A DNA stretch of 64,000 nucleotides. Origin: Isoperla grammatica. Its lineage: Eukaryota > Arthropoda > Insecta > Plecoptera > Perlodidae. The DNA is taken from assembly GCA_945910005.1 (NCBI GenBank), contig OX246743.1, positions 9,523,587 to 9,587,586 on the forward strand, read 5' to 3'. Position 1 is the stretch's first letter. Every line of letters begins with the position of its first letter. Shown in pieces: positions 39,201 through 63,626 of this stretch. Both the position numbers and the translations under genes were made by a program. The notes under the pieces are model-generated. The model had not been told where the DNA came from, did not search any database, and saw only the letters and a program-made list of their open reading frames with translations.

Positions 39201-41547
39201 CGGGAAGAAACAAATTTTGTTTAGGGTAGGCTGCTGGTGGCTCTTTGGGAAATTGGGTGGGCAAAGGTTGTCGGAGCTCTGTGAAGAGTGGGTGTAATTT
39301 TGACTGAATTTACTTGCAAAGGATTCTGCAATTCTCTGCGAGTCGTCTTCGTTAGATCCATCGATTACGAAATGACTGGGAGCGGCGCTGCCATTTTTGC
39401 TGTGGATGTAACGCCACAGTTGTTTCCCGTTGTCCTCACCCGTTGTCCTCACCAGTGTTCAGGGCTTAATTTCTAATTGAAAAGGAACCAGAACGCATAG
39501 TTTGTTCGCCTGCCATAGTTTTGAACCAACCCCGCCAACCACCTTTATACAGTGCTTTGCACACACACACGCATATAATATATATAGTCTCCCACAAGCA
39601 CTTTTTTTAAATGAGTGGACGAAGGAAGCTCCGAAGATTATTTCCTTTGTACTGGGGTCTGACTACCTGGGGGACTCTCATCAGTGAAAAACTCACATTC
39701 ATACAATTGAATGAATATTTTGCAATTTTCAAAGACAAGTTCCGTTCCCCGTGTACATAATGGGAATTCACGAATTTTTAAATCATGAGGAAAACAGTGT
39801 GTGAGATTTAAAATAATACCGGAACGCGTGTTCCGGTTTCAGGAAAGGAACCGGAACTGTGTTCCGGTGCGTCCCGCTCAAATTAAGCCCTGGTAGTGTT
39901 ACAGTTTACCCTGTATTCATTTGTATGTATCCTTAGCATTATCTTGTATTAACAGTAACATTACTAATGTGATTTGTTTGATTATTTTGTCATGTCGTAC
40001 AACAAACGACTACACTACAGTGCTTCGAGCGTTCCAGCCACTGACCACTACCTGCTAGAATTCGCCGAAAACCCCTCTAGAAGGCAGTTCACTAATTATT
40101 AAATTGGAAAAATATAGGCACCGAGATTGGCCACTGATGGCGCTAGTGAAAACGAATGAAGCGCTCCAAGTGGCAAAGTCGCGCAACAACCTGCTGAAGC
40201 AGCGTCGTTCTTCCTACGTCAATAAAGGGAAATTGTGAAAATTGTTTAATTAAATATGGGTTTTAAAATTTTCGCGCAGATTATGAATCCCATCAGTAAA
40301 TCTTAAAAAGGCAAGCCACCATTTTAATCAGGACACGTTTTAGACGTAAAAACAACAAATAACACACAACAAACACAAACAAAACAAGACAATAAAAGCC
40401 AAAACAAAAACACAAAACAAAACAACAATACAAAATAAATACACATCAACAATAAAAACGAAACAAACGCCAAACAAAAAACAAGATATATCACAATAAT
40501 ATCCAGTTCTATTTTCAACCGCGGAATGAAATCTTCAGCAGTTTGTTGCTAAATTTGGCCACATACAGCGCTGTATGTACTAACACACGGTGCCTATACA
40601 TAGTTTCTAAAGAAGTCAAATAATTTTTCAAAGATTTGGAAATTCTTTTTGTTGAAAGTTGTAGTGTATCCAATATTCAGTGACTGTTGGCCGGATCGCT
40701 CGCAACGCTCTCTGTGCACTTGTTACGCCTCCCCATACCCATTATAGACTGTGATGGTCCAACCGTCCAACCCCTACTTGGAGGGGGAAGGGGAGGGCTG
40801 CCAGCCACGGGGTGGTGCGGGCCGCTGGACGGAGAAGGGCAGTCGAGTACCGGACCACGCGGTGGTAGCTTCCGTGCCTCACTTGTAGTGTTGTGAAACC
40901 AATAAAAGGTGGCTGTATACCTATTTGCAGTGTTAAGTGGTAATACCCCACCAACAACCCCCTCCCTGGCCAGTGGCCATATTACAAGACTTCAAACATA
41001 TATAAATTAATACTACATTTTCTTAACCAGGTGGGAAGTCGCCGGCTGGGGCGCGAAGAAGTACAAAGTGTCGAAGGTGTCGGGAGAAGAGTGCGCAGAC
41101 TGCGATCTCTCCTGTCCGTCGTGTTTGGTGTGCGCACACAGCTACGCTTGCACTTGCGTCGACTCTACCGTCGACAACAACATGTGCGAGCACATTCACA
41201 AGGTCGTGTCGACCTTGGGGTCGACGGTTGTCGGCGACGTCGGTCGGGAACCAGACTGCGACGACGCGCGGCGACTGGAAGAATCCATCAGAGTGGACGC
41301 GACGAAATGTCCCACCAACGAATCTCGAACGGCCTTCGAAACGAAACTGGAACGTTTTCTAGAAATGGTTCGGGGGTTACCGCACGACAGCCGGGCTTGC
41401 GAGGAAGCCGGTAAACTAGTGGACGAAGCGACGGCACTGGTGGACCGAGCCGTGAGCGTCATAACGGCTCCGAGCGACGGCACTCGTGGACCGAGCCGTG
41501 AGCGTCATAACGGCTCTGAGCAACGGCACTCGTGGACGGAGCCGTGA
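30247..41547 (+). CDS. MULE transposase-derived protein with C2H2 and SWIM zinc fingers
   Basis: Seven GT-AG exons (30247-30490, 30669-31028, 31540-31979, 32521-32779, 33238-33438, 36637-36889, 41031-41547) join without a stop to 757 residues. Exon 1 encodes two C2H2 fingers (C9/C12/H25/H30, then C-x4-C...H-x4-H). Exons 3-6 carry a Mutator-like transposase core: KICVECAHATN, VVDEFGMAFPSAFCCSN, FMSDDDAGVLYNAW, ANRAEMWA and SLEATHRLLK. Exon 7 has a SWIM finger, CTC-x9-CEH. Related proteins usually have Asp where this has Glu332; the second Asp (about 394-396) and the final Glu510 are kept. C2H2/DDE/SWIM is an eccentric but known MULE arrangement. Introns are long and hold many transposons, yet the frame is intact and exons 3, 6 and 7 are GC/CpG-rich. 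No terminal inverted repeats flank the gene. I infer host domestication or strong constraint; an old intron-bearing transposon is the alternative. ATG 30247 is the first in the open frame after the upstream TGA at 30190. Confidence 0.8.
33788..34637. mobile_element. hAT-type element nested inside the 33725-35517 element
   Basis: Ends are cagggttaccac and (g)gcaaccctg, flanked by the perfect 8-bp repeat ccataatc (33780-33787 and 34638-34645). Inner sub-terminal sequence has aatcctccaa-type repeats on the left and atccgcaaa-type repeats on the right. 850 bp, no transposase frame seen. Confidence 0.85.
35166..35435 (+). mobile_element. 3' end of an RNase H-bearing non-LTR retrotransposon
   Basis: The plus frame from about 35166 reads ETAQFRLKTQHDLGKHLHRI, then TCKLCGNGDQDRSHLFVCP and EKEACLYWLTRF before TAA at 35397. 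It aligns with the C-terminus of the 41996-43180 frame (ATAQFRLATGHDVLQHHL, CKLCSSDVQDRAHLFRC, EKEAVLYWIVRQ), including a C-x2-C...H...C finger. It ends in a gaagaagaagaa run. The copy is strongly 5'-truncated and embedded in the outer hAT element, in inverted orientation to the 42-kb copy. Confidence 0.75.
35717..36230. mobile_element. Second copy of the 12.0-12.35 kb repeat interior
   Basis: It contains tttccacgagactcttatgg, the phrase gtccgtcgatagcggtcgaa, and caagcctcgatgtggattga. All are reverse complements of the core of the 11781-12546 element. A (GTTT)n run at 35806-35834 matches the (AAAC)n run there. The long terminal inverted repeats of the first copy are not evident here. Confidence 0.65.
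37250..39452 (-). mobile_element. Non-LTR retrotransposon fragment (reverse transcriptase, CR1/Jockey-like)
   Basis: Minus-strand frames at 38841-39452, 38383-38847 and 37848-38408 give a decayed reverse transcriptase: IKQLRPGGATGPDNIPCRIL, NYRPISLTSVVGKIMERVV, DWSKAFDRVP, YADD (about 38661-38673) and a C-terminal thumb/tail with SVLMYGSPAWHP. Two frameshifts separate the frames. Between KAFDRVP and GPLLFIVYMMDLP (about 38745) the stretch normally containing SGVPQGSVL is missing, a clean in-frame deletion of roughly 60-70 residues. The 5' end (endonuclease) is absent. The 3' tail runs through a GT-rich repeat to an att-rich end near 37250. It lies in intron 6 of the MULE-derived gene and cannot be active. 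Confidence 0.8.
37550..37815. repeat. GT-rich tandem repeat, about 120-bp unit, two copies
   Basis: A segment with gtgtgtgtttaccagtgtgg, gcgtgtgggtgagaatg and gtaatcatgtatgcgtgtga recurs about 125 bp later with few changes, all built on gtgtg/gagag words. It lies in the 3' region of the adjacent retrotransposon fragment and may be part of its tail. Confidence 0.75.
39460..39892. mobile_element. hAT-like MITE
   Basis: The left end cagggcttaattt is mirrored by aaattaagccctg at the right. Flanks ccagtgtt and gtagtgtt agree at six of eight positions. Sub-terminal ggaaccggaac/gttccggttcc motifs are present on both sides. It borders the truncated 5' end of the retrotransposon fragment. Confidence 0.65.
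40010..40745. mobile_element. Diverged repeat related to the 53.9-54.4 kb element
   Basis: The right end (ctgttggccggatcgct... to cgcctccccata at about 40690-40735) resembles the arms and termini of the 53894-54376 element. Internal phrases such as ccactacctgctagaattc (about 40046) and aaagaagtcaaataa (about 40610) match the other copy in reverse complement. An A/C-rich run lies at 40350-40490. No coding content. Confidence 0.45.
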
Positions 41548-41952: not shown

Positions 41953-43256
41953 TTTTTTTTTTTTTTTTTTTTCTTCTTGTGCCAAGATGGCTTTTTCAGC
42001 CATTCTTTTGTCTTACTATCCAATATAAAACTGCTTCCTTTTCTGGCCTGCTCATATCATTGGGCAGGGAGTCGATAAAAACCTTGAGGGCAGCACATCT
42101 AAAAAGATGTGCCCTGTCTTGTACATCGGAGCTGCACAATTTACACGTTGCCGGTTCTTTGCTGATGTTAAAGCGGCTCAGGTGATGCTGCAGGACGTCA
42201 TGGCCTGTTGCCAGCCGGAACTGGGCGGTGGCCGTCTTTCTGGACCAATTTTTATCAGGTCCTCTGTTGATCTCTGCCCACCAGCTTTTGGCTCGTAAGG
42301 CCTCTTCATATGTGCTTTTGTACGCCTTTTTGATGGCTGTCTTGATCTTGATTTTAGCACCTCTGAAGGACGTAGCCGCAGCTTGTGGAGGAACAGCTTT
42401 CGTAGCTTTTTTGGCCAAGAAATCAGCTTTTTCGTTGCCCAGGATCTGGCAGTGGCTAGGGATCCATTGAATTTCTAGTTCTTTATTCTGCTGACGGAGA
42501 CTGGCAAGGGAGTTTTTGAAGAGCAGCGATTGGGGGTGGAGGTTCACTGCTTGAGAGACAAATTGGATTGCTGAAACGCTGTCGCTAAGGATAACAAATT
42601 TTGTCTTGTTGAGTGGGAAGGCTGGCACCTCTGCAATTTTTTGAGCCGCTCTGGCGACGGCTGCAACCTCCGCATCGAAGTATGTTGTGCCGACGCCCAT
42701 CGGAGTGGCTTCCTCGAAGAAAGTGCAGTAGATGCTATAGCCGGTTCTATGTGTGGCTGAGTCATAGGAGCCATCCGTGAAAATGTGCACCCACTCTTTC
42801 AGAGGAAAATACTTTTTCAAGTGTACCTCAGTTAGCGCTTTCAGCTCTTTCTTGTCGAGACCTTCCTTTTTCTCAATGCCATCTATTTTTGTTCCTGGTA
42901 TAAGCTGATTGGATCTATCTGGAAGGCAGGCCGGCAGTGGGACGTCAAAAGGTTGGCGTACCGCAATCAGGAGCTCGGGGCAGACTTTTTCTTTCAGCTT
43001 AGTGACCGCTTCAGCGAAGTTGGTGTGAGCCATTACTCTTGAGGTTGGGTAGTTGAGCCATTTGTCAGGGTCGAGGCGTGCCAATTTTTCATGCAGCTGG
43101 ATAGCGCGCTGTTCTCTACGCAGCTGCATTGGCTCGATTTGGCTATACCATTCCATGGCGTCTATAGGGGTGGTTTTCACTGCACCGGTGATGAGTCGGA
43201 GGGCTTGATTTTGGACTCTGTCGATGAGACGGGCCTGGGAGGCGGCGGCTGCAGGG
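41953..43256 (-). mobile_element. 5'-truncated non-LTR retrotransposon with RNase H domain
   Basis: A 20-bp T run (41953-41972) marks the poly(A) end of a minus-strand copy. The frame 43180-41996, extended upstream to about 43256 (RLIDRVQNQALRLITGAVKT), gives the post-reverse-transcriptase region with a TPIDAMEWYSQIEPMQLRRE motif. An RNase H domain follows: HIFTDGSYDS with first Asp, DAEVAAVARA with Glu, VILSDSVSAIQF with Asp, and WIPSHCQILGNEKADFLAKK with His and Asp. A C-x2-C...H...C finger ends it. The RNase H catalytic residues are all present and the 394-codon frame is open, but the reverse transcriptase and endonuclease are missing, so it is dead on arrival and probably young. Confidence 0.85.
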
Positions 43257-43510
43257 AAAATTTCGGTTTATATAACATTTATAGTTCCTGAAATGGCATC
43301 TTATAGTGTTCACTTGACATATCAATCATATTCTTGCTTTCACTGAAGATCAAGGTTCAATTCCTGAAATATTCTGGGTTTTCAGTTCCTGGAATTGACC
43401 TAAAGCTATCAATATAATACTAGCATACCTACATACATGTAAATGGCAACTCTGGAACCATCATGGAACCATGGCTCATAGCAACGAGACACACAGAATA
43501 TTATGTATAT

Positions 43511-46641: not shown

Positions 46642-48119
46642 TCAGTACATACAGAAACAGAATCTCTGAACTAAACAGAATTGCAAACATAGATACGAGT
46701 GCCATAGCTGGACGCTTGAACAGCGAGGACACCCAGGGTACGGGGGTTGACACGGGTCCCACCACGGTAAAGGGTAACCAGAACCAATAATGGGACCACC
46801 AAAGGGACCACCAATGGGACCACCACCAATGGGAGCTCCAGCAGGAGGCAATGGGAGCGGCGGTCCTCCAGGCACGCCACCTGCCAAGTACCCCATAGCA
46901 CCGCTCGGAAGACCCCCTGGATACGCTGGAGGGGGATTCCCCCCCTGACGAGCCGATCGAGTGACATTATCGTCTTCAACTTCAATGCCGTCTCCAAGGT
47001 CATCCACGTCGTCGAGTGTTTCGTCCGAGTTGTCGCCGGATTGCGCCTGTCATGTACACCCACAAAATTAGTTTCAGTTTTGTTTTATTTCAGAATGAGT
47101 AGCCTACATAATAATTTTACAAAAGGATATATATAAAAATTGGACCCCAATGAGTGAGTATTTACTCGCAAGCAGGGCTCCTGTAACTAATTAACTAATG
47201 AAGTCTCATGATCTACTACTTTAAAATTAATGTATGAATGCAATGAATGAATGACAATGTTGTATTGTGTATTTTGTATTTTGCATTTTGCTCAATTTCG
47301 TGTGTAGTGTTAATTAACATTTATTGATAGTGAGAAGTTTAAATAGAAAAACGCATGTGCTAGTATTTGCTATACGAATTTATTACCCGCCATACAAAAC
47401 ACATATTTATATCGGCGAATGTAAACATCTATCCACCAACACTATTACTCTATTAGAGAGTTGTGTAGGCATATTAATTATTTTTAAAAATAACGTAGTA
47501 TCAACTAAGTTCTGTTGTCACTATATACAAAAATTCAACTTTCATAGTTTGAATGAACAACGTAATGTCAAGAGTAATACGTCCAAATATAAATTATATA
47601 CACACTAATTTGATCAAATATTCTCCATTTTTTAGGGTTTCCATATTTTAAAAGTCAGCAAACTTTGTGGCTTGTGGTTGTACGGGCTGTAAGGGATCTG
47701 GGGCAAAGCCCCAGCCGCCAAAAGCAAAAATTTGTTGCACTCTTTTTATCAAAACATCATTTATAACGACCTGAGAAAGCAACTAAGTTTAATTTTAGAT
47801 GAATTATTAAATTTAAATATCAATTTATTTATTGCGATTCACAGTTACTAATCAATAAAAAAAAACAGCGTCCCCGTTAATAGTTGTGGGACACCGGGAC
47901 TGGGACAGGTCCCTAAAAACCGGGACCACCCCGTTAAAAGCGGGACGAATGGACAATGCAGTTCAACTCTATAAATTTATTTTTACTGATAATTATGAAA
48001 TGAAATTTCCTGTATGAGATAACTTTTTCTTTTCAACGTGTACAGTTAGGTTATTAGAAACTTACCAGAGCTATGGCCAGAATCACGGGCACCAAAGAAC
48101 GAATCAAAAGCTGTTTCAT
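46642..48119 (-). CDS. Secreted Gly/Pro-rich prepropeptide with seven-Cys tail (gene A)
   Basis: Exon 1 (48119-48066, 54 nt) encodes the signal peptide MKQLLIRSLVPVILAIAL. Exon 2 (47046-46642) follows in phase 0 after ...catgacag. The product is 152 residues: an acidic pro-region (AQSGDNSDETLDDVDDLGDG, then IEVEDDNVT), a processing-like site RSAR before QGGN, a long PGG/GGP-rich stretch of about 70 residues, and a Cys-rich C-terminus (WDPC...GCPRC...YLC..FC....FCFCMY). The cysteine spacing is C-x6-C-x2-C-x10-C-x3-C-x5-C-x-C. A TATAAAA box lies about 70 bp upstream of the ATG. It shares architecture and motif with genes B-D nearby. Gly/Pro-rich plus Cys-rich halves recall some invertebrate antimicrobial peptides and also adhesive or matrix proteins; function is unknown. 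Confidence 0.75.
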
Positions 48120-48187
48120 GCTGGCAATACAAAGACCTGTGCTTCAATCTGTCTAGTCAATGCGTCGCAACAGCGTCACTTAAACCG

Positions 48188-48194
48188 TTTTATA
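48188..48194 (-). promoter_or_regulatory. TATA box of gene A
   Basis: The minus strand reads gggTATAAAAcgg, about 70 bp upstream of the gene A start codon. The same gggtataaaa context occurs upstream of gene D. Confidence 0.65.
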
Positions 48195-48702
48195 CCCGGC
48201 TTATTCAGTCTGGCATTTATAACAACATTACGTCAAATTCTTAATAAATTTCATGTGGATAGAATGTGCACATTTTATTGACAATACGATCAGTCATTTC
48301 GAAACAGTTGTTGAAATGAGCTTATTGTAATAATTCTGTCAATGATACTACGAGAAGACAGAACTTGCAAATCATATTGCTTGCACGTACGGTTTTAAAT
48401 GTGTGACTACTTTGTAAACTAAGAAGCAAATTCCTAAAATGGGATGAAGCAATTTATAATAATTGATGTCATCATGTTCAATGGAAAACCATCCTAGCGG
48501 TCTCCGAGTTCCGTTTCTTCATAATTGCTCACACATTAAAACATCAAAATGTAGTTCATTGTCAGTGCCAGTATGTCAAGAGTATGTCAAGTAGAAAGAT
48601 AACAATTTATTGTCAGCTGTCTGATATGCATCAGGTATCAGACAAAACATCTTAAGCATGTTCTTTATTTACTTACAAAGTTTCACATTTTTTATTTACC
48701 AT

Positions 48703-48948
48703 TGAAATGAAATGAAATGAAATGAAATGAAATGAAATGAAATGAAATGAAATGAAATGAAATGAAATGAAATGAAATGAAATGAAATGAAATGAAATGA
48801 AATGAAATGAAATGAAATGAAATGAAATGAAATGAAATGAAATGAAATGAAATGAAATGAAATGAAATGAAATGAAATGAAATGAAATGAAATGAAATGA
48901 AATGAAATGAAATGAAATGAAATGAAATGAAATGAAATAAAATGAAAT
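48703..48948. repeat. (AAATG)n pentanucleotide microsatellite, about 48 copies
   Basis: A nearly pure aaatg run of about 245 bp with one interruption near its right end. Pentanucleotide periodicity leaves all three minus frames open, as Ile-Ser-Phe-His-Phe repeats; these are not genes. Exact copy number in an assembly is unreliable. Confidence 0.97.
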
Positions 48949-49547
48949 TGTACGTGACGCCATCCAATATAAATTCTCAATTTATGGAAATTTATTTTGG
49001 GTCGGGGAATTTGACGTTTCCTCCTAATCCTTCATATCATTACACATTGGGAACAATAATATATAAAAAATTATATCGTCACCACCCACAAGGTACGAAT
49101 AATACTGGGATGCGTTTCATGTCAAAGCCTGGTGATTCTTCAGCCCTCTCTATGTTTAATTTAACAAGGATTTGGGTGGGACAAAAATATTCTGGACTTT
49201 AAAATGAAAGGATCGCAAAAAACTGCTCCCTAGTTTTCATTCTGTATATTTTTTGTTCATACAATTCTTTGCATATGAGTTATTTATCATAGTTTTGTAG
49301 ATCTACCGAAAGAATTGATAGCTATATAGAACGACTATAGCCTACAAAATATCAAAATTATTGTGATTTTTGAACAGTCAAGTCAAACAACATTTCAGAA
49401 CTTCTGTTAATCAATACAAAACTACATAAGAAAAAATTAATCTTTTAAATAAATAGAATAAACACAGGGTGTACATTTATATATTCCAGGTCATGTTCCA
49501 CCAGTAAAATGCTAAATTCCTACACCATCAGGTCTTTACTCTAACTG

Positions 49548-50715
49548 TTAAGGCCATCCTGCACCATCAGGCCATATATATCGACCATAAGGCCACATTA
49601 TTCCACCATAAGGCCATATACCTCCACCAGAAGGCCATATTCCACTACCATATGGCCACATTCCACCAGTAAAAGGCCATCCTCCACCATAAGGCCAAGT
49701 TCCTCCAACATAAGGCCATATTCCTCCACCATAAAGCCATATTCCACCAGCAACAGGCCATATTATAACAGTATTTATTCCAGCACTAGGAGTGAACACA
49801 CCCCCACCAGGGGGAGATGGAGGACCCCATGGGGACAGAGCACCCTCTATAGGAGGAGTCGCATAAGAGCTCCAACCACCCTGACGTTCACTTCGAGACG
49901 AAGTAACGTTCGGGTCTACGGTGAACTCAAGGTCATCGATGTCGTCATGTATGACGTCATTCTCAGCCTTGATGTCTTCCTCGGACCGCATCTACACCAG
50001 AGGATAATGATTAGATCTGAGAACATAGTTCACGTCGACCAGTCAACTATAGACCCGGTTTCACCCTACTTTTAGTCCCGGGATTATCTTCCACTTCAGG
50101 GTTACGAATTTCATAATAGAAGCGTAGTAAAAAGTACATACATTTGATCCGGCCCGGAGGACCAACTTTATGTACACACGAAAATGAATAAAAACATAGT
50201 AAAAAGAAGCATACAATTTGATCCGGGAAGAGCCCCAAATTTATGATCACAAGAAAATGATATACTCCACATACAAATAAAACTGAAACATCCTCATTTT
50301 TGCGGCCGTCCACACGAAACCGAGAATTCAAAATAATTAATAACAAAACAAAGAGGTGCGGACAATAGAAATTGCTCTCGTTTGATTGTGATTTGGCAAT
50401 TAAAAAAATAAACAACAACATAACAAAAAAGTATTTTAGAATTCCAAAGCAGAGAATAAAAGCCAGACGTTTATAGAAAACAGACTTTAAGTAAAACGAA
50501 AGACGCAGCAACCTAAACAGGGTCCTGCATGACAGGTACTGGGACCATATATGTGTGTACTTGATTCTGTCGCGTTCGCCAAAACTTTTAAATTTTGTTT
50601 TTTTCCTGTTCTGTTTCTCCAACCGGTAACCATGCCTGTACTGTGGTTGCAGATTACTTACCGCATCTATGAATAGCAGCAGCGGCACCAAACAGAACAC
50701 CAACAGGTGTCTCAT
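49548..50715 (-). CDS. Secreted Gly/Trp/Pro-rich prepropeptide (gene B)
   Basis: Exon 1 (50715-50662, 54 nt) encodes MRHLLVFCLVPLLLFIDA. Exon 2 (49991-49548) follows phase 0 after ctggtgtag. The product is 165 residues: acidic pro-region (MRSEEDIKAENDVIHDDIDD, LEFTVDPNVT), site SSRSER before QGGW, then a tail built of about nine irregular heptad-like units around WP(Y/S)GGG, for example GGIWPYGG and GGTWPYGGG, ending GAGWP. Unlike genes A and C it has no mature-region cysteines, so the Cys motif was lost or replaced by repeat expansion. Signal peptide, pro-region and promoter are nearly identical to gene C, so B and C are recent duplicates. Confidence 0.78.
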
Positions 50716-50811
50716 GGTCGCAGTGGTCTTGACTCTTGAGATTAACTCTCTTTCACCTCTGACAAATAAATTCGAGTAGAGAAGTGATTTCAAATCGACG
50801 ACACCACTTAC

Positions 50812-50817
50812 TTTATA
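50812..50817 (-). promoter_or_regulatory. TATA box of gene B
   Basis: The minus strand reads gtcagTATAAAgtaagtgg about 100 bp upstream of the start codon. The 5'-flank from here to the ATG is strongly conserved with gene C. Confidence 0.6.
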
Positions 50818-51110
50818 CTGACGGTTTAATTTCACAATTCACGCGCCGCCAAAACTAAACTTGCGCAATTCTTTCATAGTGCTTCAACAAATAAAATAAA
50901 CGAATACAATTTGTGTTATTAAATGATTCTTGCAATGGGACAGAGTTGATTATATCCAGTTCTAAAGAAAATACGTGATTAAACACAATACACCCACTTT
51001 TAGCTTACTTAACGTTTTACGCTAATATTTATTTAACGTTCTCGATTTTATACTTTGTTTTGAAAATCGAATGAGGAAATTACACAGAAACGATTTCTTA
51101 GGTACTTCGT

Positions 51111-52369
51111 AACGTTGACGTTGAACCCACAAGTGACGTAAGAAACTAACTACAACAATTGAACTTGCACTAATGGGTCAACAAAACTTACAAGTAAACA
51201 AATTAAAAAATTAAAAAATAAAAATTAATTGGAACTTGTGGATGTAATTATCTGTTGCAAATAAAGACAATAGTAATGTCATAATAATTAAATTGCAAAT
51301 AATAAATAAAAATAAGTGAAGTGCCAGTAAGTGAACTGCTCTCCAGGCAGGATTTTAAAGACGAACAACAACGTCGTGGAAATTTTATTTTCCGTTTTGG
51401 ACATTGGTTTTCCAAAATCAATTAGCTAATTTTCTCAAAGCTTGTTGTTTGTCTATAGGTTAATTAATTCGGTTAGTTAAATTGTGATCTTTGGTGTTGG
51501 TTGTATTCTCTTTCAATATTTTAAAACGGATGTACTATGGAAAACAATGAAGCAGTCGAAACGAAAGAACAAATAATTATCGAAATATAGCAAGCAATAA
51601 ATCGGGGAATGTCGGAAGGATATAAGTTAGATCCAACAGTCCCGTTGGAGGATCACCTGGGACAAGCGGAGGAGGTGGAACGTGACAAACAGAATATATA
51701 TAATAATAATTCCCTCAAGTTTATAGTACACATAACACATATCGTTTCGGTGTTCTATCACAAAAAGTTGTAAGCACTACGACTTGTGTATGTTTTACTG
51801 CGTTATTCATAACAACAAAAAAAGACAAAATGACGGTAACACCCTGTGGACAGATTCTAAGTGCAACGGAATCAGAGGTAAACTCCTGAAACAGAAGCAC
51901 TAATTTCGTTTATCTAATCTTCTTATCAATCTCGCCCTGTCCTTTGTATCTCTTGAAAATACTACCAATATCAACATCTGCCTTGTATTTAACACTTTTA
52001 AATTTATACTTCAGCCGTGCCTGGGCCAGGCCCAGGCTTTGATTAGCTTGCGATTCCTTACACTGAGTACGGGCCCTGGCCTGAAATACCGGGCCCGGGC
52101 CGGGCTTCTCTATTAAGGTCGATGCAGACCTTTAGTCAGGTTTAAGGAACCCCAAGCATGACAGTACAGTCCATCCCAATAATATGCAACAGGTTTGTAG
52201 AAATAGGAACCAGGGAACACTCAACAGAATACTATAGTATGATATGGCCTACATACTTAGTGACCTGGGACCTAATAATAGAATCACAGGAATCTTAACA
52301 CATTCTCAGACAAGGTATTACTAACAACTAGAGCCATTGAAAGCAATCGATGGTTTGATCTGGGATTTA
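51111..52369. other. Spacer between duplicated units
   Basis: AT-rich. A frame from about 51537 reads MENNEAVETKEQIIIEI, then a stop, then QAINRGMSEGYKLDPTVPLE, suggesting a decayed coding fragment of unknown origin. A GC-rich patch with gggcccgggccgggc lies near 52075-52110. Confidence 0.4.
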
Positions 52370-53462
52370 TTTTTTGGGGAATTTATATTGAGTCAAGGAA
52401 TTTGTCCACATTAACAATATTACTCACAGCTCTGTCCGGATTTGATTCACGTTAACAGTTACTAAATTATTGGAAACAAATATCAATGAGGGTGTCACCA
52501 CCCACAATTGGTACGAAGAATGCTGGGATGCGTTTCATCTTAAACAACCAGGGGATTCTTATACCCTCTCTTTATATTCAATTTGACAAGGATTTGGTTA
52601 AGACATTCACGGACTAAGAAATAAAAGGCTAATAAATAATTGCTCACCAGTTTTCATTTTATATATGTATTTTTTCGTATTTTCATACAATCCTTTACAT
52701 GTGACTTATTTTATCATAGTTGGCAACAATACATGTCATAAATTGTTTACTGTTGTGATAGAAAGTATTTTACATCTACTGAAAGAATTTTTAATTACAC
52801 ATAAAACAGCTAAATTCTTGTGATTTTTGAACAGTCGTGACAACCAAAACTTCGAAACTAAAGTTACCAATACAAAAATACACAAGGAGTGCATTTCTTA
52901 TAAATAGATACATAAAACAAATAAATAAACACGTATTATGAATACATTACCATTTCACATAAATAACTCCATATCATTGACATACTTTTCAACTTAGTGC
53001 TGGCTTTGTATACTGGCTTACTGTAGCTACAGACGTCGCGACAGTTTTTCAACGCCGTTCATTGGGCGAAGATCATAGATTACATAATCAAAACCCTTCT
53101 TCCAATTGAACCCCGTTCTCTCATTTACCTGGCGAGCGCAATGACCACTACACCACCAGAACTGATAACTTACGAACAAAATCATATATGAAAAATCTTG
53201 TTTTTCTCGAATATATTTCTCGAAATTAATGTTGTTGAAAATATTATATTGCAATAATAAAACTTATTTAACATTACTTAAATAAATAATTTTAAATAAA
53301 ATAAAATAATAAAATAAATAATTTTGCAATAAAATAAATGTGTCAATGAAAAAATTATATAGCCTAATAATATATAAAATAATTAAAATAGAGAACACGT
53401 AAGACTGTCAACTTAACAATGTAGCCAATGTGGATTGTAGAATGTAGACATCTGCTTTGATT

Positions 53463-54980
53463 TCAAAGCCAGCAGAAGCACCACTTGGGTAGCCAATTGA
53501 GGCATATTTCCCTACACCACCAGGGGTGATTCATGTTGAGATCCCTACAGCGGGGACACGAGTTGGGGGTGAGACATGGATCGTAGAATCCTCCTCCACT
53601 TGGCCATATTCCCCCACCAGGAGGAAATCCACCACCAGGAGGCCATCCACCACCACCAGGAGGCCATATTGGACCAGGAATGGGGGCTGGAGGTCCTCCT
53701 GGGATACCACCCGGTAATGCAGCTGCTATAGCACCTGCACCACTCTGACGTTTGCTTCGGGACGAGGTGATGTTCGTGTCCAAGGTGAAATCAAGGTCGA
53801 CGATGCCATCATTTCTGACGTCATCCAGTGACTCGATGTCTTCCTCGGACCGCGTCTACACCACAGGACCATAATTAGATAGATGTTCTTAGTACTTATG
53901 GGGAGGCGTAGCAAAGTACAAAGAGAGCGTGGCAAGCGGTCCGGCCAACAGGCACTCAATGAATCAATATTCATTGAGTGCCTGTTGGCCGGACCGCTTG
54001 CCACGCTCTCTTTGCACACAACTCTCCAAGGTCCGCTAGGGGGAGATCAAGTAGACCTTGACAACTCTCTAGGTCATCGGCAGAACTATTTGACTTCTTT
54101 GGAATCCCGATGGATACGACTTCTAGCAGGCAGTACTCAGTGGCCGGTGGAGACTCAAACTAACACATAGATAGCGCTGCTAAACAACACCCTTATCTGC
54201 GCCATTGATGATTTAACAATAAAGCAACAATGATCAATTGACAGATAAACTCATCCTTATAGTAGTTCATTTTCTTGCCACCAGAATGTGTCTAGTCTAT
54301 TTTGAGGGGCCAGTGCCGAAACGCTCACCGGTACCATTGGGTTTTAAACCCAATGCCGGTACACCTCCCCATAGCAATTAAGACACTTTTACAAGTATAG
54401 GCATAGGTACCGTGCATCTAAGTGATTCTAGAAATATTAACAAACAACACTATATGAAAGTTTAAAGTGACAACAAATTGAAAATTTTATGGTACAAAAC
54501 CTGAATAATAAGTCATAAAAATTGCATGTACAGTATAATGGTATAGTAGTTAAGGATCCGTTATTGACATGAGACTGTTAAGCTGGGACCAAAGTCCGTT
54601 TGGTTTTTAGTCAATTGGATTTTCTTCAGACAGTTTATTGTGTTAATTTGTTTCAGTATAATATTAATATTTATATCCGAAACCACTTAAAAACCTGACA
54701 CAAATACCTAACCCTAAAAAAAGTAATGCGAAAAAGTACTGGGGGGCAGAGGCCCCCCCCCCAGACATACCTATGTATCTGTTCATATTGTGCCTCCTCT
54801 TAAACATTCGCGATTTGTCACAGCGTATTTATTCCATTTTTATTTAATTATTACTTATAATTTTGCTGTTGCTGTTGCTGTTGCCTGTCACTAACCATGA
54901 CTGTACTGTGGTTGCAGATTACTTACCGCATCTATGAATAGCAGCAGCGGCACCAAACAGAACACCAGCAGGTGCCTCAT
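53463..54980 (-). CDS. Secreted Gly/Pro/Trp-rich prepropeptide with seven-Cys tail (gene C)
   Basis: Exon 1 (54980-54927, 54 nt) encodes MRHLLVFCLVPLLLFIDA, identical to gene B. Exon 2 (53855-53463) follows phase 0 after gtggtgtag. The product is 148 residues: acidic pro-region (TRSEEDIESLDDVRNDGIVD), site SSRSKR before QSGAGAIAAA, a PGGIPGGPP/IWPPGGGGWPPGGG stretch, and a Cys-rich end (YDPC...SCPRC...WWC..IC.......WCFCWL). Spacing is C-x5-C-x2-C-x10-C-x3-C-x7-C-x-C, the same pattern as gene A. RSKR is a good furin-type site, and a Gln after cleavage could cyclise to pyroglutamate. Function is not recognised; Trp/Gly richness, acidic pro-piece and cysteines suggest a defence or adhesive peptide. 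Confidence 0.78.
53894..54376. mobile_element. Element with a near-perfect internal palindrome in the intron of gene C
   Basis: Ends tatggggaggcgta and ta(c)acctccccata form terminal inverted repeats. Near the left end, about 45-bp arms (ending tcaatgaat / attcattga around 53955-53970) pair almost perfectly: caaagagagcgtggcaagcg mirrored by cgcttgccacgctctctttg. A related diverged repeat lies at about 40.0-40.74 kb. No coding capacity. Confidence 0.6.
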
Positions 54981-55075
54981 GGTCGCAGTGGTCTTGACTC
55001 TTGAGATTTACTCTCTTTCACCTCTGACGAATAAATTCGAGTAGAGAAGTGATTTCAAATCGACGACACCACTTA

Positions 55076-55082
55076 TTTTATA
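55076..55082 (-). promoter_or_regulatory. TATA box of gene C
   Basis: The minus strand reads gcgagTATAAAAtaagtgg about 100 bp upstream of the ATG, in register with the gene B box. Confidence 0.6.
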
Positions 55083-55385
55083 CTCGCGGTTTAATTTGAC
55101 AAGTGACACACGCCGTCAAATCTCAACTTGCGTAATTTTCTTGATAATTTTCAAAGTGTTAAAACAAGTTCTATGTATTGTCATTTTACCATGACCAAAT
55201 ATCACGATTGGTAAGTGATTCTTGTAACAGGACAAGGTTGATTTTAAACAATTATTAAGAAAATACGTGATTAAATATAAAAGTATCGATATTTTGCTTA
55301 CTTGGCGTTCTACGCTAATTCAATAAACGCTCTCGGCTACTTTGTTTTGAAAATCGATCGAGTTGCAGAAACGATTTCAAAACTG

Positions 55386-56334
55386 GTGATTTCACGCTTT
55401 CACAACAATTGCATTATTTTAAGGCGGCTGTACAATACACAACACACACCCTACTTTAACAATCATAAATGCATATTTTGTTTGTAAGAATAGCTGTTAC
55501 AGGGTGCTGACAATTATACCTACCAAGAACAACATGTCTCCATGTCATGTGTGTCATTATATTTCTGCACAGATGTTAAGAGGAATACATTGGGGGGGGG
55601 GGGGGGGGGGGCATTTTATGATTCTTGGTCGTATGGTACTACATGTATCAGTGGAGAAGAGAAACCCAAACAAAAGTTGTGAAACAACTATACTCAGAAA
55701 GAAAACGTGCGATCTGAAATTTATAACAACATTGAATTCGTCTTAAAATAATTATTCTATTATAGAGCAGAAACACGTTTTCTATCAAATACCAAAACAA
55801 CGGCATTATTACATGGTTTCTTGTAAATAATTTCACAATAGTGAATACGTAGAAATGAGCTATATTAAACTCGTCAATTTGGAACAGTACATTTCAATAG
55901 TTTTGTTTGGGTATAACAGATACAGTTTTGATCATTTATCGGCGATTGTTTAGCGATCATGTCTTCAATACAGCTGCGAAATCGTTATCAATTCCATATA
56001 AACGTGATGTTTACTAAGTATATTACCAAAACAATTGTGTCAGATATTCTTTGAAGGTAGAATTTCCAATGTCACTACACGAACTTTGTATCAGTGTTAT
56101 CATCATTCTCTAAACATGGAATCGAATTCTCACCGACATGATATTTAATATTTTATTCATTGAAACAACCCAACAAGAAGAGTGGTAGGTTGGTTCATAG
56201 GGTTACACTGGCGTGGGGAGAGCGGAGGGCTTCAGACACCCCTTAAATGCCCCTTCACTAACGACATCACTATTATTGTGGGAGCGAACAAGGCTTCAAT
56301 CCTATCTTCTTCTATCTTCTTCTATATATATTTA

Positions 56335-56417
<83 letters not shown>

Positions 56418-57660
56418 TTATTTATATACATAAAAATGAAAGTATGTCTGTTTGTCCTTTATGCATGACTACACCATTCTTCCGATCTCCATGAAACTTG
56501 GCACATATATGTATTTTTTCACAGGGAAGGTTTGTACGAGAGCGATTTTTTAAAAAGTGCCCCATGTTTCGAGAAAACGGTCCTTTTTGGCCCAATGTAT
56601 AAGGTATAGGAAGTTTTGTTGTTGTGTCTGAATCATTCATTTATTCACTGCCTTCTCTACATCCCTCAAGATACATCGTACCTAGCTTCCGTTTCCCAGT
56701 CGCATAGGGGGCGGTGTACACTGTGATAGGGTCATGGACATGACATTTCCCTTCACACAACTTTTGTTTGTTTTGTTGTTTTTGTGATGATTTCAAAAGT
56801 CATCGAATTATCACTGAAATCTCCATTACGATGCTGATTATGATTATAGTCTTCATCAAAGTGTCGTTATTGGTAAAATAGACAATTTATGCGAATTTTG
56901 CCGTGCATTGAAATTCAAAAATGAAACTCCAGAAGTTTCAATAAAAATTACAATGTTAATTGAATGTTATCATAACCAGTTTCCTTGAATTTCCTTTCTT
57001 CTTAGATCTCAGCAACGCGCGACGGGTAAACTAGTTGACAATAAACGTTATTCCTATCATTCACACGGGGGTAATGCTACTAATTAAGACCCTGAAGGTC
57101 ATTAGAAATTAAGGTTTTCTATTCATATTTTTAAAATCGAAATTTTGGGAGCTACACAAGATAGACTAGATCAGTTTTAAAAAAATGTGTCTCCTTCTCG
57201 ATATTGGGGTACCGCGTTGTTAAAAGCTGCCAACAAGATTATTCTTACTCAGGAGAATACCCTGCATTCGAAAACCATTGTTGGCAGTTTTTTGTTTGAG
57301 TATTTCAACCCCAAACACCCCAAACACCCCCTAAAAATCAATTTTTACGGAATTATCTTTAATAATTCATAAGTCCGGAGATAATTACATCAACATTTAT
57401 TTTTAAAACTTTATTAGAAGAAAAATGTACTGTTAAGAATTTGGCTATTTCAGATTTTCAATTTTTATCGAAACTAAATAAGAAAATAGCTCTCTGACAC
57501 AAACTTTTCAGTTTTTGCTGAGCAACAATGAAATGTTTCACTTTATTGTAAGTAAACGGTACAAAATGGAGATAATATTTTTTCCCGAAAACATCATTGA
57601 CAATTCATAAATAGTGTACAATCGTCATATTTAGTCTAAATAATTTAAGTATTGTGTAGT
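55386..57660. other. Intergenic sequence with microsatellites
   Basis: Contains a poly-G tract near 55592 and the ATT microsatellite described separately. The segment at about 56425-56640 has a gtctgtttgtcctttatgca-type stretch like a dispersed repeat. No gene is supported. Confidence 0.4.
56336..56418. repeat. (ATT)n microsatellite, about 27 copies
   Basis: An almost pure trinucleotide run. The poly-Leu and poly-Tyr open frames over it are composition artefacts. Confidence 0.95.
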
Positions 57661-57799
57661 ATTTGAAACAAGGTGGCAAAGTGTAATATTCCTAGGGGCA
57701 GCAGAGAGAAGCGGAGTCTCTACTTGAATGTATATCCGTGGGCGCCTTGATGAAGCAAGTATGGGAGTAGGCTCAATCCCTTCCTTTTAGCGTATAGAA

Positions 57800-58390
57800 T
57801 AATAAATTTGATAGTGCCCGGCTCAAATGTTAGACATTCACGAGCTGTACGCAAAAAATAAAATGGCCGCCACGGCAAGTGTTTTTCCCATTTATCTCCA
57901 TAATGCATAGTTTTATGACAAAATTGAATATGACCAGAATTATTTCTCTTAAAATTCTACACAAATATGATATTCACGTATTTTTGTAGAATTAAATACA
58001 CACGTAGAACTTCAATTTTTTGCATGTTAATCTGTACTAAAATGTGCATATTTTGGCTCCAGTGGGCTTCTCAATGAATGAAGAATGAACTATATGAGTG
58101 GGCTAATTCTCTTTCTTTAAGTATATATAACAATAATTTTGATAGTGCCCGGCTCAAATTTTAGACATTCACGAGCTGTACGTAAAAACCAAAATAGTTG
58201 CCACTGCAAGGGTTTTTCCATTTATCTCCATAATGTCAAGTTTTATGACAAACTAGAATATGACAAAAATTCTTCTTCTTAGAATTCTACACAAACATGA
58301 TATTCACGTATTTTTATAGAACTTAATTGTTACGTAGAACTTTAATTTATTGCAATTCAATCTGTACTAATTAAAGGATGTAATTAAAGG
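57800..58390. repeat. Two diverged tandem copies of about 330 bp
   Basis: gatagtgcccggctcaaat, gacattcacgagctgtacg, tttatctccataatg and catgatattcacgtattttt-like phrases each occur twice at about 330-bp spacing, in the same order. Confidence 0.75.
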
Positions 58391-58619
58391 AAGAGTGAAC
58401 TATGTGGGTGGGCTAGATTTGTTTTATTTATTGTGATTTAACAACGAAATCGACAACGTAGATCATATGACGTCGGGTGTATTTGGAGGAAAGTGTCAAG
58501 AAGGGCGTCAATATTCCCTGGGCAGGTGGGTGGGCTCAATCTCTTATTTTAAGCTTTTTGCCTGAGAATATTGAAAATATGCTATATTTAATAATTTGAT
58601 CAGAGTTTGACGAATCTAA

Positions 58620-60060
58620 TGGTGGAAGACATTGATAACCAAATTCATCAATCTGGCTCTCAGGGGTAACCAAATTACCGAGATTTTTAAAAAAATTTGC
58701 AAACCGTAGTCTATTTTTTTACGAAACGGAGTACTTATCAATATTTATTTTGTTTTTAAATTTTGTTCTGTAAACATTCTTAACCTTAAGAGTTAACAAC
58801 AGTTAATTTTATGGCTCTCTAGAATCAATAACAAGGTACACAGGCACAGACACACACACGCACAGACGAGACACAGTGCGTATGCGAAATTCAGGCAATG
58901 TTTAACTTTGGGGCGTCGCGACGCCACAATCCCTTCCGATATTGACATTTTCCATACCAAATAAAGAAACAAGATATATATTGATTTCAAAAGAAAAAAA
59001 ACATTGATCAAATTGCATAAATATAGCTCTCAGGGGTAACCAAAGTCTTCATGTTGTTAGAATTCTCGCTGAGGATGTCTATTTCTTTTACGAAACGGAG
59101 TATTTATCAATATTTCTTTTGTTTCTAATTTTGTTAATAAAAACAATCATAACCATACTAGGTTATAATAGTGAACTTTATGGCTCTACCTAGAAGCAAT
59201 AATAAGCTAGAGTTATTTAATTGACAGAAGTGCGTACGTGACATTCAGGCATTGTTTGGCTTTGGGGCGTTGCAACGCCACTAACCCTTCCGATATTGAA
59301 ATATTCCATACTAAATAATTTTTTCTAAAAAATATATAGATTTCAATGGGTGAATACAGATTGATCTAGTTTCATAAATGTTGCTCTCAGGGCTAACCAA
59401 AGTCTTGAGATTGTTACAGTTCTCGTTACGGAGGTCTATTTTTTATGAAACGGAGTACTTATCAATGTTTTTTTACTGTTTATATTTTTTTCTATAAACG
59501 AACTTAACATTAAAAAGTTAATAGTGGCTAACTCTTTGGATCTACCTGAAAGCAAGCCCAAGCTAGACTTGTTATTGATTTGACACAATATCTGCATAAG
59601 TGAAATTCAGACATCGTCTGACTTTGAGGTGTCCCACCGCCACCTTCCCTTCCGATATTGAAATGTGCGATACCAAATAATTTATCTGCAAGTATGACTC
59701 ACTTAACGGTGTATTAATATATAACCAAGTTTGTAAGTTTGGCTCTCAGGGCTAACCAAACAAGTGCTATTGTTACAATTCTTGCTACCGTGGTCTATTT
59801 TATCATGCAACGGACTATTATCAAATTTTGTTTTTATTTTTTATTTTTTTTCGTAAACAAACTGAACATTACAAGTAACTACTAGTTAATTGTATGGCTC
59901 TATCTAGAATAAATACAAAGTTAGAGATATTTATATAGACAGATGTGCGCACACGAAATTCAGACACCTGAATTTGAGGCATTGCGACGCCATTTTCCCT
60001 TCCGATATTGAAAAAATGCCATATTATACAATATTTTCGCGAGTATTGGTAATCCAACGG
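58620..60060. repeat. Diverged tandem repeat, about 360-bp unit, four copies
   Basis: The phrases gctctcagggg(t/c)aaccaa, acgaaacggagtacttatca, ggctctacctagaa and cccttccgatattgaa recur in order. Starts lie near 58653, 59025, 59382 and 59740, spaced 357-372 bp. The last unit is partial. Confidence 0.85.
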
Positions 60061-60485
60061 TGTATGGCACGTTTATTCATGAGCCATTTTTACCCTCTGG
60101 CTCAAAGTCTAGTAGTTGCAAAAAAAATATTTACTTTTTTTCTTGGTGCACCCTCGTCTTACACCCCAATATTGACTTTAACCATTTTTTTTATTATCAA
60201 TTGCATTAGTTAATATTCGATGAGTATATAAATAATTTAATTTGGTTTTTAGTGTTAAAATAGTGGTTTTTGTGATTTTTTTTCTTCTGGACGGCAAAAA
60301 CCATCCCTTAATACGATTTAAGGGTATAAAAGTGAAAATGGCGATTGCCAACAATGTTATTCGGATTCAGCGTTTAAAAATCTATTAGGATCACTTTGTT
60401 GGCACCTTTTAACACGAGGGGCCCCAAAGCTTAAAAATTATTGAAACTGGTCTAGTCTAAGACAGATATTATCAGGATCTACAGC

Positions 60486-60682
60486 TAAGGGCTGGTCCAC
60501 ACAGATTTTTAAGGCATACGATTTAAGGTTTAACGCGTAGTCGTAAAGTTGGATCATAGGAAACACGTACTGGCGTTCACACAAAGTTTTAGTTTTAAGA
60601 CGTTGTTTTCATTGTTGTTTTTAAAACAACGTCTTAAAACCTTATGCATTATGTCTTCAAAATCTGTGTGGACCAGCCTTAA
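60486..60682. mobile_element. MITE with ggctggtccacacaga termini and internal hairpin
   Basis: Left aagggctggtccacacagat mirrors right atctgtgtggaccagcctt. A second inverted pair inside (gttttaagacgttgttttca with aaaacaacgtcttaaaac, about 60594-60641) forms a hairpin. About 197 bp, non-coding. Confidence 0.75.
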
Positions 60683-61233
60683 CGAAAACAAATCTGCAGA
60701 ATTCATTACGTTTAGGTTAAAAAACGATAATACGATAATATCGTATCGCATTTAATCCTAACGTATCATGAATTTTGCTCATATTTGTTATCGTAATCTG
60801 TAGACCCTGATCCGTCTTGTGTATCTTCCCACAGTTTCACAGAACCATTTCAAGCAAATCCACAGAAGAACAAAACCCAAATCATTCCTGCTCATCCACG
60901 TACGTGGTGGAAAACTATAATTGTTTTTTACAAAAACTTGACCCTGACTGCATATTTATAGTATTTATGTTCAAAGAGTCGTTTACACAGGTTTCGTTTG
61001 TAATTTATATCAGAAATTTCCACCTAAATCGAACTGATATTTACTATAAACAAAAAATGATTCGAGCAACAACAATCACAAAAAGTTCTGCCTGCAAGTC
61101 TAAACAATATACTTCAAATATATTGGTGGTCCGATGCACAAGACACTGTTTCGACATACATGTTAGCATGTTGCTGGGTGATTGACAAACATAAGCACGT
61201 ATCAGATTCACGTGATTCGTTAATTCTGTTGGG

Positions 61234-61240
61234 TATAAAA
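61234..61240 (+). promoter_or_regulatory. TATA box of gene D
   Basis: gttgggTATAAAAgacgcg about 60 bp upstream of the ATG at 61299. The gggtataaaa context matches the promoter of gene A. Confidence 0.65.
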
Positions 61241-61298
61241 GACGCGACCACTCTTGAGTACAGGATCAGTAAGATCAAACAAGCGCGCATCTTCAACC

Positions 61299-63626
61299 AT
61301 GAAGTGCTTGTTGGTACTTTGTCTTCTTGCATTAAGTCATCACATATCTTTGGTAAGTCAGTCAATATATTATCAATATACATTTACAACTGAGTTAACC
61401 TTTAAAAACATTTTCACCAAATCTGATCAAGAAAACTGTATGTCAAGTATCTTATGACGAGTAAACTTTGTTGTCCATTTATTTTTCACGGTTTTTGTAA
61501 AAAGCTCACTTGGCAATACCGGTATTTTTTTGGTATTTGTTGCCTTTGTTGCCCCTTGTTGTAAAATAAACCTCACACGCATTTTTGTATAGATAAACAT
61601 ATACATATGCGAAGAAAAACCATAGCAATTGCAATATAAATCTTTAAATTAAATAATAAATTTTAACTGTATGCTGGATTTAGATTTAAAAATAGTATGG
61701 TCATACATATACATATATATATAAAAAAATATTAATTTACAGGAATGTTACAGCACTATATTTTAGGAGTTTTATTTGTGACGTCAAACAAATCATAGAT
61801 TAATAAGTATCTGTATTCTGTAGACAAAGATGAAGTGAAGCGGTTTGGATAGATTGGGAGTGAATTACTAAATTAATTATTACTGGATAACTAATAATGT
61901 GTAATGTTACACATTTGCATGATAGATATTGCTGTTCTTCTACTTATACACATTTTAGGACAAGTGTGATTGTTTTATAAATAACTAACCAGCTATTAGT
62001 CGGTGTAACAATACCCGTCTCGAGATAGGTACTACCCTGACAGCAACTACGCTGTATTCTTATGGGTAAACAGAACCGAACCCGCCCAGTTTACGGCTAT
62101 TTATTGACATCGTGAGAGCTTCAAAATATTGACAAGGTGATTCGTACGCGAAATTTGGTTTTGTATTAGCTAAACAACGAACTTCAAAACGGTCAAACAT
62201 TATAATTGTTACGATTGCCAATGCAATAATGTATGAATATTGAATTATTTAGAGAAATTAAAATCGTAAATAATTACAATATTTTTATGTTTGTAATTTA
62301 ATTGTTTGGCTGATTAAAAAATAAAATTCCGCGTAGGAATCACATTAACAATATTATCTGGAAGTGTTCTCAAGATTTTAATAACATCTGTTAAGTTAGC
62401 GTGGTTTATTGTTGCGATCTACCCATGGCCGTTAGGAATGAAAATATATTTCCCAACCAAATTACAATAATTTCTATCTTTCAAACAAATAATACTCAGA
62501 TAAATAAAAGTCAACTTGACATTATTTTACTTTTAATATTAAGCCTTTTTAGAGCTCATCATCACAAAAAGTATTTTTAGTTGTGGTTCATTTTATGGAT
62601 AATTTTAAATATTGGGCAATATCATACAATATAAACAATACGAGAGTTGGGATCAAGAACAAAAGCAAGACTACGATAAATACGAAAAGTAAGGATATAT
62701 TCAAGAGTAATAAACGTCTCTTCCTACAAATGTATTTCAACGCAAATATCTAACTCTCGTTTCCACTTCTTCTGTTCTAGACACACGGGCAAGGAACAAA
62801 GATTGGTTATGACCCCGAGCTAGCTGACCCTCGCGCCCAGGTAAACGGGGCAGTGCTTACCCGCTCTAAAGATAAAGGTAACCCCGAGTCAGCTGACCCT
62901 GGCGCCCAAGAAAACGACGCCATTATCATAAACATAGGCGATAAACCCGAGGCGCGCTCTGAAGTTGGCGAACCGGATGAAAATGAACCAAACAGGTCTT
63001 CACTTCTCCGGACTGCACCACCAGACGCTCCGCCACTGGGTGACGAAGATGGAGAACGTTTTAGAGGAATAGGGACACAGGGAAACGACAACACTGCGAG
63101 CTCTGATGGGCGGGACAGGAGTGGTTGGGGTAATGTTGGCTGGGACAACACCGGCTGGGGCAATAATGGTTGGGGCAATAACGGTTGGGGTAATAATGGT
63201 TGGGGAAATATTGGTTGGGGTAATTACGGTTGGGGCAATAACGGTTGGGGTAATAATGGTTGGGGTAATAATGGTTGGGGCAATAATGGTTGGGGCAATA
63301 ATGGTTGGATCAATAATGGTTGGGGAAATAACGGTTGGGGAAATACTGGTTGGGGGAATACTGGTTGGTGTAATAATGGTTGGGGCAATCTTGGTTGGTG
63401 CAATAATGGTTGGGGCAATAATGGTTGGATCAATAATGGTTGGGGAAATACTGGTTGGGGAAATACTGGTTGGGGCAATACTGGTTGGGGAAATAGTGGT
63501 TGGGGCAATGATGGTTGGGGTAATATTGGTTGGGGCAATAGACTATTGGTCGATGGTATGAGGGGTGGCAGTGGTAGTAGGCCCACGAGCAACGAGTGTC
63601 AATGCACTCTCTATCCAGTGTACTAA
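61299..63626 (+). CDS. Secreted GWGNN-repeat protein (gene D)
   Basis: Exon 1 (61299-61352, 54 nt) encodes the signal peptide MKCLLVLCLLALSHHISL, then gtaagt. Exon 2 (62781-63626) follows in phase 0 after ttctgttctag. Total 299 residues. After the signal comes an acidic, Gln/Asp/Glu-rich region of about 110 residues, with a short internal duplication (ELADPRAQVN / ESADPGAQEN) and a basic RDR just before the repeats. Then 28 tandem pentapeptides of form G-W-x-N-x, mostly GWGNN, with scattered GWGNT, GWINN, GWCNN and GWDNT. It ends with a repeat-free C-terminus carrying two Cys (ECQCTLYPVY). The 54-nt first exon, phase-0 intron, TATA box and pro-region layout match genes A-C on the other strand. 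Function unknown; a glycine/tryptophan/asparagine repeat of this kind would suit a structural or adhesive secretion, or a Trp-rich peptide precursor. Confidence 0.8.
61353..62780 (+). other. Intron of gene D
   Basis: A 1.43-kb AT-rich intron between gtaagt and ttctgttctag, with no embedded feature recognised. Confidence 0.6.
63122..63541 (+). repeat. 15-bp coding minisatellite, 28 copies, in gene D
   Basis: The unit ggttggggcaataat (variants ggttggggtaataat, ggttggggaaatact, ggttggatcaataat) repeats with no indel, so the frame is kept throughout. Most changes fall at third codon positions or in the last codon of the unit. Confidence 0.95.

Follow-up and report, generated by a model that had tools for sequence, protein, structure and literature searches.

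The window analysed here, 64,000 nucleotides of the stonefly Isoperla grammatica (assembly GCA_945910005.1, contig OX246743.1, positions 9,523,587 to 9,587,586, forward strand), contains four predicted genes for secreted prepropeptides, which we call A, B and C (minus strand) and D (plus strand). Three of them, A, B and C, appear to form a small tandem family whose common origin is supported, while D follows the same gene plan. An initial annotation, made from the sequence alone, had described this cluster, and we rebuilt its gene models, compared the genes with each other and looked for relatives.

Four predicted two-exon genes with a shared architecture

The rebuilt models of A–D give predicted translations which run without internal stops through to the stop codons that end the second exons in Table 1. 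All four genes begin with a first exon of exactly 54 nt, which encodes a hydrophobic signal and ends at a phase-0 GTAAGT donor, followed by a predicted intron of 1019 (A), 670 (B), 1071 (C) or 1428 bp (D), an AG acceptor and a single, long and open second exon. The architecture that the initial annotation attributed to the four genes, including the GT-AG intron, was therefore recovered as described, as was a TATA box near each ATG, which we find 65–102 bp upstream: TATAAA starts at −75 and −102 in A, at −102 in B and C and at −65 in D, and additional copies lie farther upstream in A (−339), B (−337) and D (−254). A strong pyrimidine tract was seen by eye before the acceptor only in D, the tracts of A–C being weak. 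As a separate observation, exon 1 of B and most of its intron fall in one unspliced frame of 263 codons from stop to stop (50047–50838, minus strand), which we take as chance.

We scanned both strands of the 64 kb for hydrophobic first exons of 12–29 codons ending at a phase-0 donor. The scan returned six matches, five of them 18 codons long, and a TATA-type box was present within 115 bp in four of the six, which are precisely the first exons of A–D. Twenty shuffled windows, in which base composition only was preserved, yielded a mean of 0.2 matches at 18 codons and 0.1 with a TATA box, compared with five and four in the real sequence. As B and C are duplicates (see below), at most three of these cases of a first exon with a TATA box are independent.

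Precursor anatomy and common origin of A–C

The acidic pro-regions of A, B and C (net charges −10, −8 and −5) each contain one N-(V/I)-T sequon and end in a convertase-type R-S-(A/E/K)-R sequence, followed by Gln-(Gly/Ser), in all three genes. The predicted mature parts of A–C, of 94–111 aa and with 21–27% Gly, have a nearly uncharged Gly/Pro(/Trp) composition, with net charges of +1 (A), −1 (B) and +1 (C); that of D, for which we placed the border between pro-region and mature part at the first GWGN unit, has a net charge of −1. The mature parts had been characterised as rich in Gly and Trp, which is true for the Trp content of B, C and D (9–17%) but not for that of A (only 3%). Similarly, the seven-Cys tail noted initially, C-x(5-6)-C-P-R-C-x10-C-x3-C-x(5-7)-C-x-C, is present in A and C only, and B lacks it.

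The common origin of A–C, which had been judged well supported, is upheld by the alignable flanks of the duplicates B and C, by the pro-region scores and by the tail score of A and C. Alignment scores of the pro-regions were reached by 4 of 5000 shuffles for A–B and by none of 5000 for B–C, the A–C pro-region similarity (75/5000) being the weakest of the family links. The A–C tail score was reached by 0/5000 shuffles, and a tblastn search of the window with A recovered the tail of C (E 0.002). Furthermore, the signal of A is identical to those of B and C at 8/18 residues in each case (amino acid shuffle P ~0.002).

Duplication of B and C and turnover of the mature part

B and C are a tandem duplicate pair whose surrounding DNA still aligns. 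Identity is 78% over the 499 columns that span the promoter, exon 1 and the beginning of the intron and 80% over 142 columns where exon 2 begins, and the 3' flank can be aligned as well (Table 1). Exon 1 encodes the same 18 of 18 amino acids in both genes, with two synonymous and no nonsynonymous differences, and the 36 codons of the pro-region have a nonsynonymous rate (dN) of 0.204 and a synonymous rate (dS) of 0.441 (dN/dS ~0.46).

Mature B lacks Cys residues and has ten WPYGGG-like units instead, and the distance from the stop codon to the aligned 3' block is ~540 bp in C and ~80 bp in B. Given that A, the more distant gene, carries the Cys tail, the simplest reading is that B has lost it. 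The repeats of B continue past the stop in a degenerate form, with stop codons at positions where the repeat unit has Trp, which implies that the array was formerly longer or has decayed; a BLAST self-match joins 49496–49601 to 49661–49766 (72%). Among the ten units the proportions of synonymous (pS) and nonsynonymous (pN) differences are 0.18 and 0.21, respectively, or 0.20 and 0.17 if only positions 1, 2, 4 and 5 are counted. Between B and C, signal and pro-region have been conserved, and what sets the mature parts apart is turnover of the repeats and whether a tail is present; the earlier description of the peptides as fast-evolving needs to be qualified accordingly.

Gene D

The array of D comprises 28 GWGNx units, in which most variation falls on codons 3 and 5; in 5/28 units the third residue is not Gly. 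At positions 1–4 pS is 0.38 and pN 0.05 (0.41 and 0.12 over all five positions), a synonymous excess that would be expected of a translated array, although homogenisation between units also shapes the pattern. The pro-region of D has no detectable similarity to those of A, B and C, since its scores were reached by 4273, 2255 and 3841 of 5000 shuffles, respectively, and an R-x-x-R site was not found in D; for both reasons its kinship to A–C is unproven. The first exon of D has 7–8 of 18 amino acids in common with those of A–C (amino acid shuffle P 0.084 for A, 0.007 for B and 0.008 for C; codon-shuffle P 0.0036–0.0106); this exon alone gives a hint of kinship, although a common layout also makes signal peptides look alike. 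D is best read as a neighbouring secreted Gly/Trp/Asn repeat protein with the same gene plan, whose link to A–C is so far architectural, as had been proposed.

Table 1 Predicted exons of genes A–D and related features of gene B (positions in the window).
Feature	Position	Strand	Description
Gene A exon 1	48066..48119	−	18 codons, predicted signal peptide, GTAAGT donor
Gene A exon 2	46642..47046	−	33-aa acidic pro-region, NVT, RSAR/Q, Gly/Pro-rich part, seven-Cys tail, stop
Gene B exon 1	50662..50715	−	18 codons, predicted protein identical to that of C exon 1
Gene B exon 2	49548..49991	−	36-aa pro-region, NVT, RSER/Q, ten WPYGGG-like units, no Cys tail, stop
Gene C exon 1	54927..54980	−	18 codons
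Gene C exon 2	53463..53855	−	36-aa pro-region, NIT, RSKR/Q, WPPGGG-like units, seven-Cys tail, stop
Gene D exon 1	61299..61352	+	18 codons, TATAAA at −65
Gene D exon 2	62781..63626	+	113-aa acidic N-terminal part, 28 GWGNx units, short CxC tail, stop
B promoter, exon 1 and intron start	50627..51097	−	78% identity to C 54892–55378
B 3' flank	49078..49464	−	Pieces 49078–49294 and 49346–49464, 74–75% identity to C 52494–52919
Degenerate continuation of B repeats past the stop	49482..49547	−	~66 bases, same frame; unit borders by eye

Searches for relatives, domains and folds

The initial annotation recognised no named family, and neither family-profile nor protein-collection searches gave a relative. 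In a collection of 5.8 billion proteins, which includes some named proteins of Blattella, Periplaneta, Timema and Schistocerca, none of 4924 candidates was related to the A–C alignment and none of 157 to residues 1–134 of D (E up to 0.1 in both cases), in a search which requires shared 5-residue words and similar length and which distant kin can therefore escape. Pfam gave no family for A, B or C at E up to 1, HMMER filters discarding most matches above ~0.1, and the bacterial and archaeal models of NCBIfam had no match in the four second exons. An IMG/VR search with the A–C alignment returned 24 matches to two patterns, both derived from the signal peptide, and no relative. A literature search that covered mostly titles and the first lines of abstracts produced no named family for these peptides. 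Within these collections, the A–D set stands as an orphan.

The tail gave no fold either. A PDB sequence search with the tail alignment had two matches at E 0.16, which we take as chance; AlphaFold2, run on the tail with two sequences, produced five models with a mean predicted local distance difference test (pLDDT) score of 49.6–66.2 and no usable fold; and Foldseek matched a tail model to a single PDB entry at E 9.9, so no fold was assigned.

Several candidate identities were rejected. Attacin, gloverin and coleoptericin were discarded because A–C match no Pfam profile at E up to 1. The pattern of cysteine-stabilised (CS) alpha-beta defensins, C..CxxxC..C..CxC, has three Cys after CxxxC; A and C have only CxC there, with no Pfam match, and this identity was set aside (the tail model of pLDDT 66, of low confidence, has helices only). 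Pfam holds a model for the lepidopteran chorion domain, which A–C do not match. D matched Pentapeptide_2 in Pfam (E 4.2e-8), which we rejected as a compositional match of the GWGNN repeats.

Genomic surroundings

Between A and B lies a long array of the 5-base unit aaatg (48703–48940), the minus strand of which is open in three frames. The intron of C contains a near-perfect inverted repeat (53916–54017, 94%) with related pieces at 40675–40737, resembling a small hairpin transposable element, and between C and D there are direct repeats at 57748–58370 (~290 bases, 83%) and 58568–60038 (several hundred bases to ~1 kb, 68–72%). Elsewhere in the window we found fragments of retroelement reverse transcriptase and RNase H (37848–39458 and 41996–43267, both minus strand) and, at 31449–32063 (plus strand), a weak match to the ZSWIM1-3 RNaseH-like domain, which at E 0.0018 does not reach the curated cut-off and may be the remnant of a transposase. 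An EMC8 gene (22239–29433, minus strand) was read from five tblastn stretches taken as exons. In a tree of 92 rows the spliced EMC8 falls within a polyneopteran clade (96/90) of 11 rows, itself included, the others being three orthopteran, two phasmid and five cockroach or termite rows, and stands outside each of these groups, so that the host is probably a polyneopteran from an order that the tree does not include; this placement rests on one gene, in a tree which places every row somewhere.

Discussion

The precursor anatomy of A–C points to a processed, secreted peptide. We propose that A–C are convertase-activated effectors, most likely of host defence, a reading to which we give a probability of about 45%, with structural secretion as a close rival (the odds of the four readings considered here are a matter of judgement). 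The signal peptide would be cleaved in the endoplasmic reticulum and the pro-region glycosylated at its sequon, after which a furin-like convertase would cut R-S-x-R late in the secretory pathway and free a mature peptide beginning with Gln, which may then cyclise. The Cys residues of the tail would form disulfides and, as seven Cys leave one unpaired, dimers are possible. The Gly/Pro/Trp repeats may bind components of the bacterial surface by means other than charge.

Support for a role in defence comes from the sequon and RSxR/Q in 3/3 genes, the similarity of pro-regions and tails, the B/C flanks, the conserved signal and pro-region and the TATA boxes. Protease sites at which the mature peptide is released from its propeptide have been named as a mark by which new insect antimicrobial peptides (AMPs) can be recognised, and glycine-rich insect AMPs include a gloverin which binds lipopolysaccharide, peptidoglycan and lipoteichoic acid (PMC4874388). 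In A–C a pro-region with a predicted cleavage site precedes a mature part rich in Gly, as in glycine-rich insect AMPs. Furthermore, a study on a cockroach reports a recent AMP family which arose through duplication and growth of a low-complexity stretch, and notes anionic AMPs (PMC7712779).

Several observations weigh against a role in defence. Sites for kappa-B near the promoter are usual for insect AMP genes. Within 500 bp, none of the four promoters contained a match to any of four kappa-B patterns, which is weak evidence, as fewer than one site is expected by chance per promoter and pattern; in 1-kb promoters three patterns had 3 matches, compared with ~5 predicted from the window's own rates (0.52, 0.48 and 0.36 per kb). 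The predicted mature charges of A–C are only +1, −1 and +1, and most insect AMPs carry a positive charge (PMC4874388). With a charge near zero and kappa-B sites not enriched, a classical peptide of the cationic, NF-kappaB-driven type is not favoured, and we rejected a classical cationic AMP on the mature charges. In addition, no Pfam family was found for A–C, and the repeats of B show no protein-level constraint, which argues against a refined function for them.

Some of these observations fit a structural or adhesive secretion, such as gland cement, an egg coat or a silk-like matrix, in which the acidic, glycosylated pro-region would keep an aggregation-prone, uncharged polypeptide soluble until a convertase cut permits assembly and the Cys tail cross-links the product. 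A charge close to zero and low complexity, rich in Gly/Pro/Trp or Gly/Trp/Asn, are features of all four predicted products that would be explained at least as well in this way as by defence, the missing kappa-B enrichment is in keeping with it, and the odd number of Cys in A and C is compatible with intermolecular bonds. D, with its 28 units and their synonymous excess at positions 1–4, fits it better than it fits defence. However, the mature parts of A–C have only 94–111 aa, and a convertase site followed by Gln, conserved in A–C, is more usual in processed peptides than in structural proteins; we regard a structural role as a serious candidate, somewhat less likely than defence. Other secreted bioactive peptides (seminal, salivary, gut or symbiont-controlling) would match the precursor anatomy equally, and genes of this sort also turn over quickly, but the sequence offers nothing specific to them and no matching family, which leaves this option improbable. 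That the models are an artefact, with chance open reading frames running across repeats, has in its favour that low-complexity repeats do produce long chance frames, several of which occur in other frames, that the repeats of B are unconstrained and continue beyond the stop, and that the pyrimidine tracts at the acceptors of A–C are weak. Against it stand four first exons having both donor and TATA box where composition shuffles give 0.1, the conserved signal and pro-region of B and C, the A–C tail similarity and the synonymous excess in D, and we consider it highly improbable.

A more far-reaching proposal would make all four genes one convertase-activated, neutral Gly/Trp/Pro family of a polyneopteran lineage, in which signal and pro-region stay constant, the mature domain is swapped between disulfide-tailed and repeat-only forms, and D is an ancient member with a GWGNN replacement; we think this unlikely. 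Few effector peptides have been described from the less-studied polyneopteran orders. The fixed secretion and processing parts, changeable mature part and recent, alignable duplicates of such a family would make the route from a disulfide-tailed to a repeat peptide traceable, and its neutral Gly/Trp-rich peptides could be used to test whether peptides of host defence must be cationic.

Among known systems, attacins, gloverins and hymenoptaecin have pro-sites, and hymenoptaecin a pyroglutamate. Like these insect AMPs of the glycine-rich group (a grouping described in PMC4874388), A–C have a signal, a pro-region with a processing site and a mature part rich in Gly; they differ in their Pro/Trp repeats and, in A and C, the Cys tail, and no Pfam profile matches them at E up to 1. 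Crustacean chimeric AMPs of the penaeidin/hyastatin type join a Pro/Gly-rich N-terminal part to a Cys-rich C-terminal part, a layout also seen in A and C, whose seven Cys, in another order than the six of those peptides, and lack of a Pfam match set them apart. Lepidopteran chorion genes similarly have a short first exon with most of the signal peptide and a long Gly- and Cys-rich second exon, but their products have no convertase-cleaved acidic pro-region such as is predicted for A–C, which also lack a Pfam match. The blattellicins of Blattella germanica are likewise polyneopteran and comprise duplicates with fast low-complexity growth; the Glx-rich stretch and the Attacin_C domain of these peptides (PMC7712779) are both missing from A–C. 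The stonefly set is best seen as secreted Gly-rich prepropeptides, a known kind, and the plan of A–C, with a sequon in the pro-region and RSxR/Q at its end, is newly described here.

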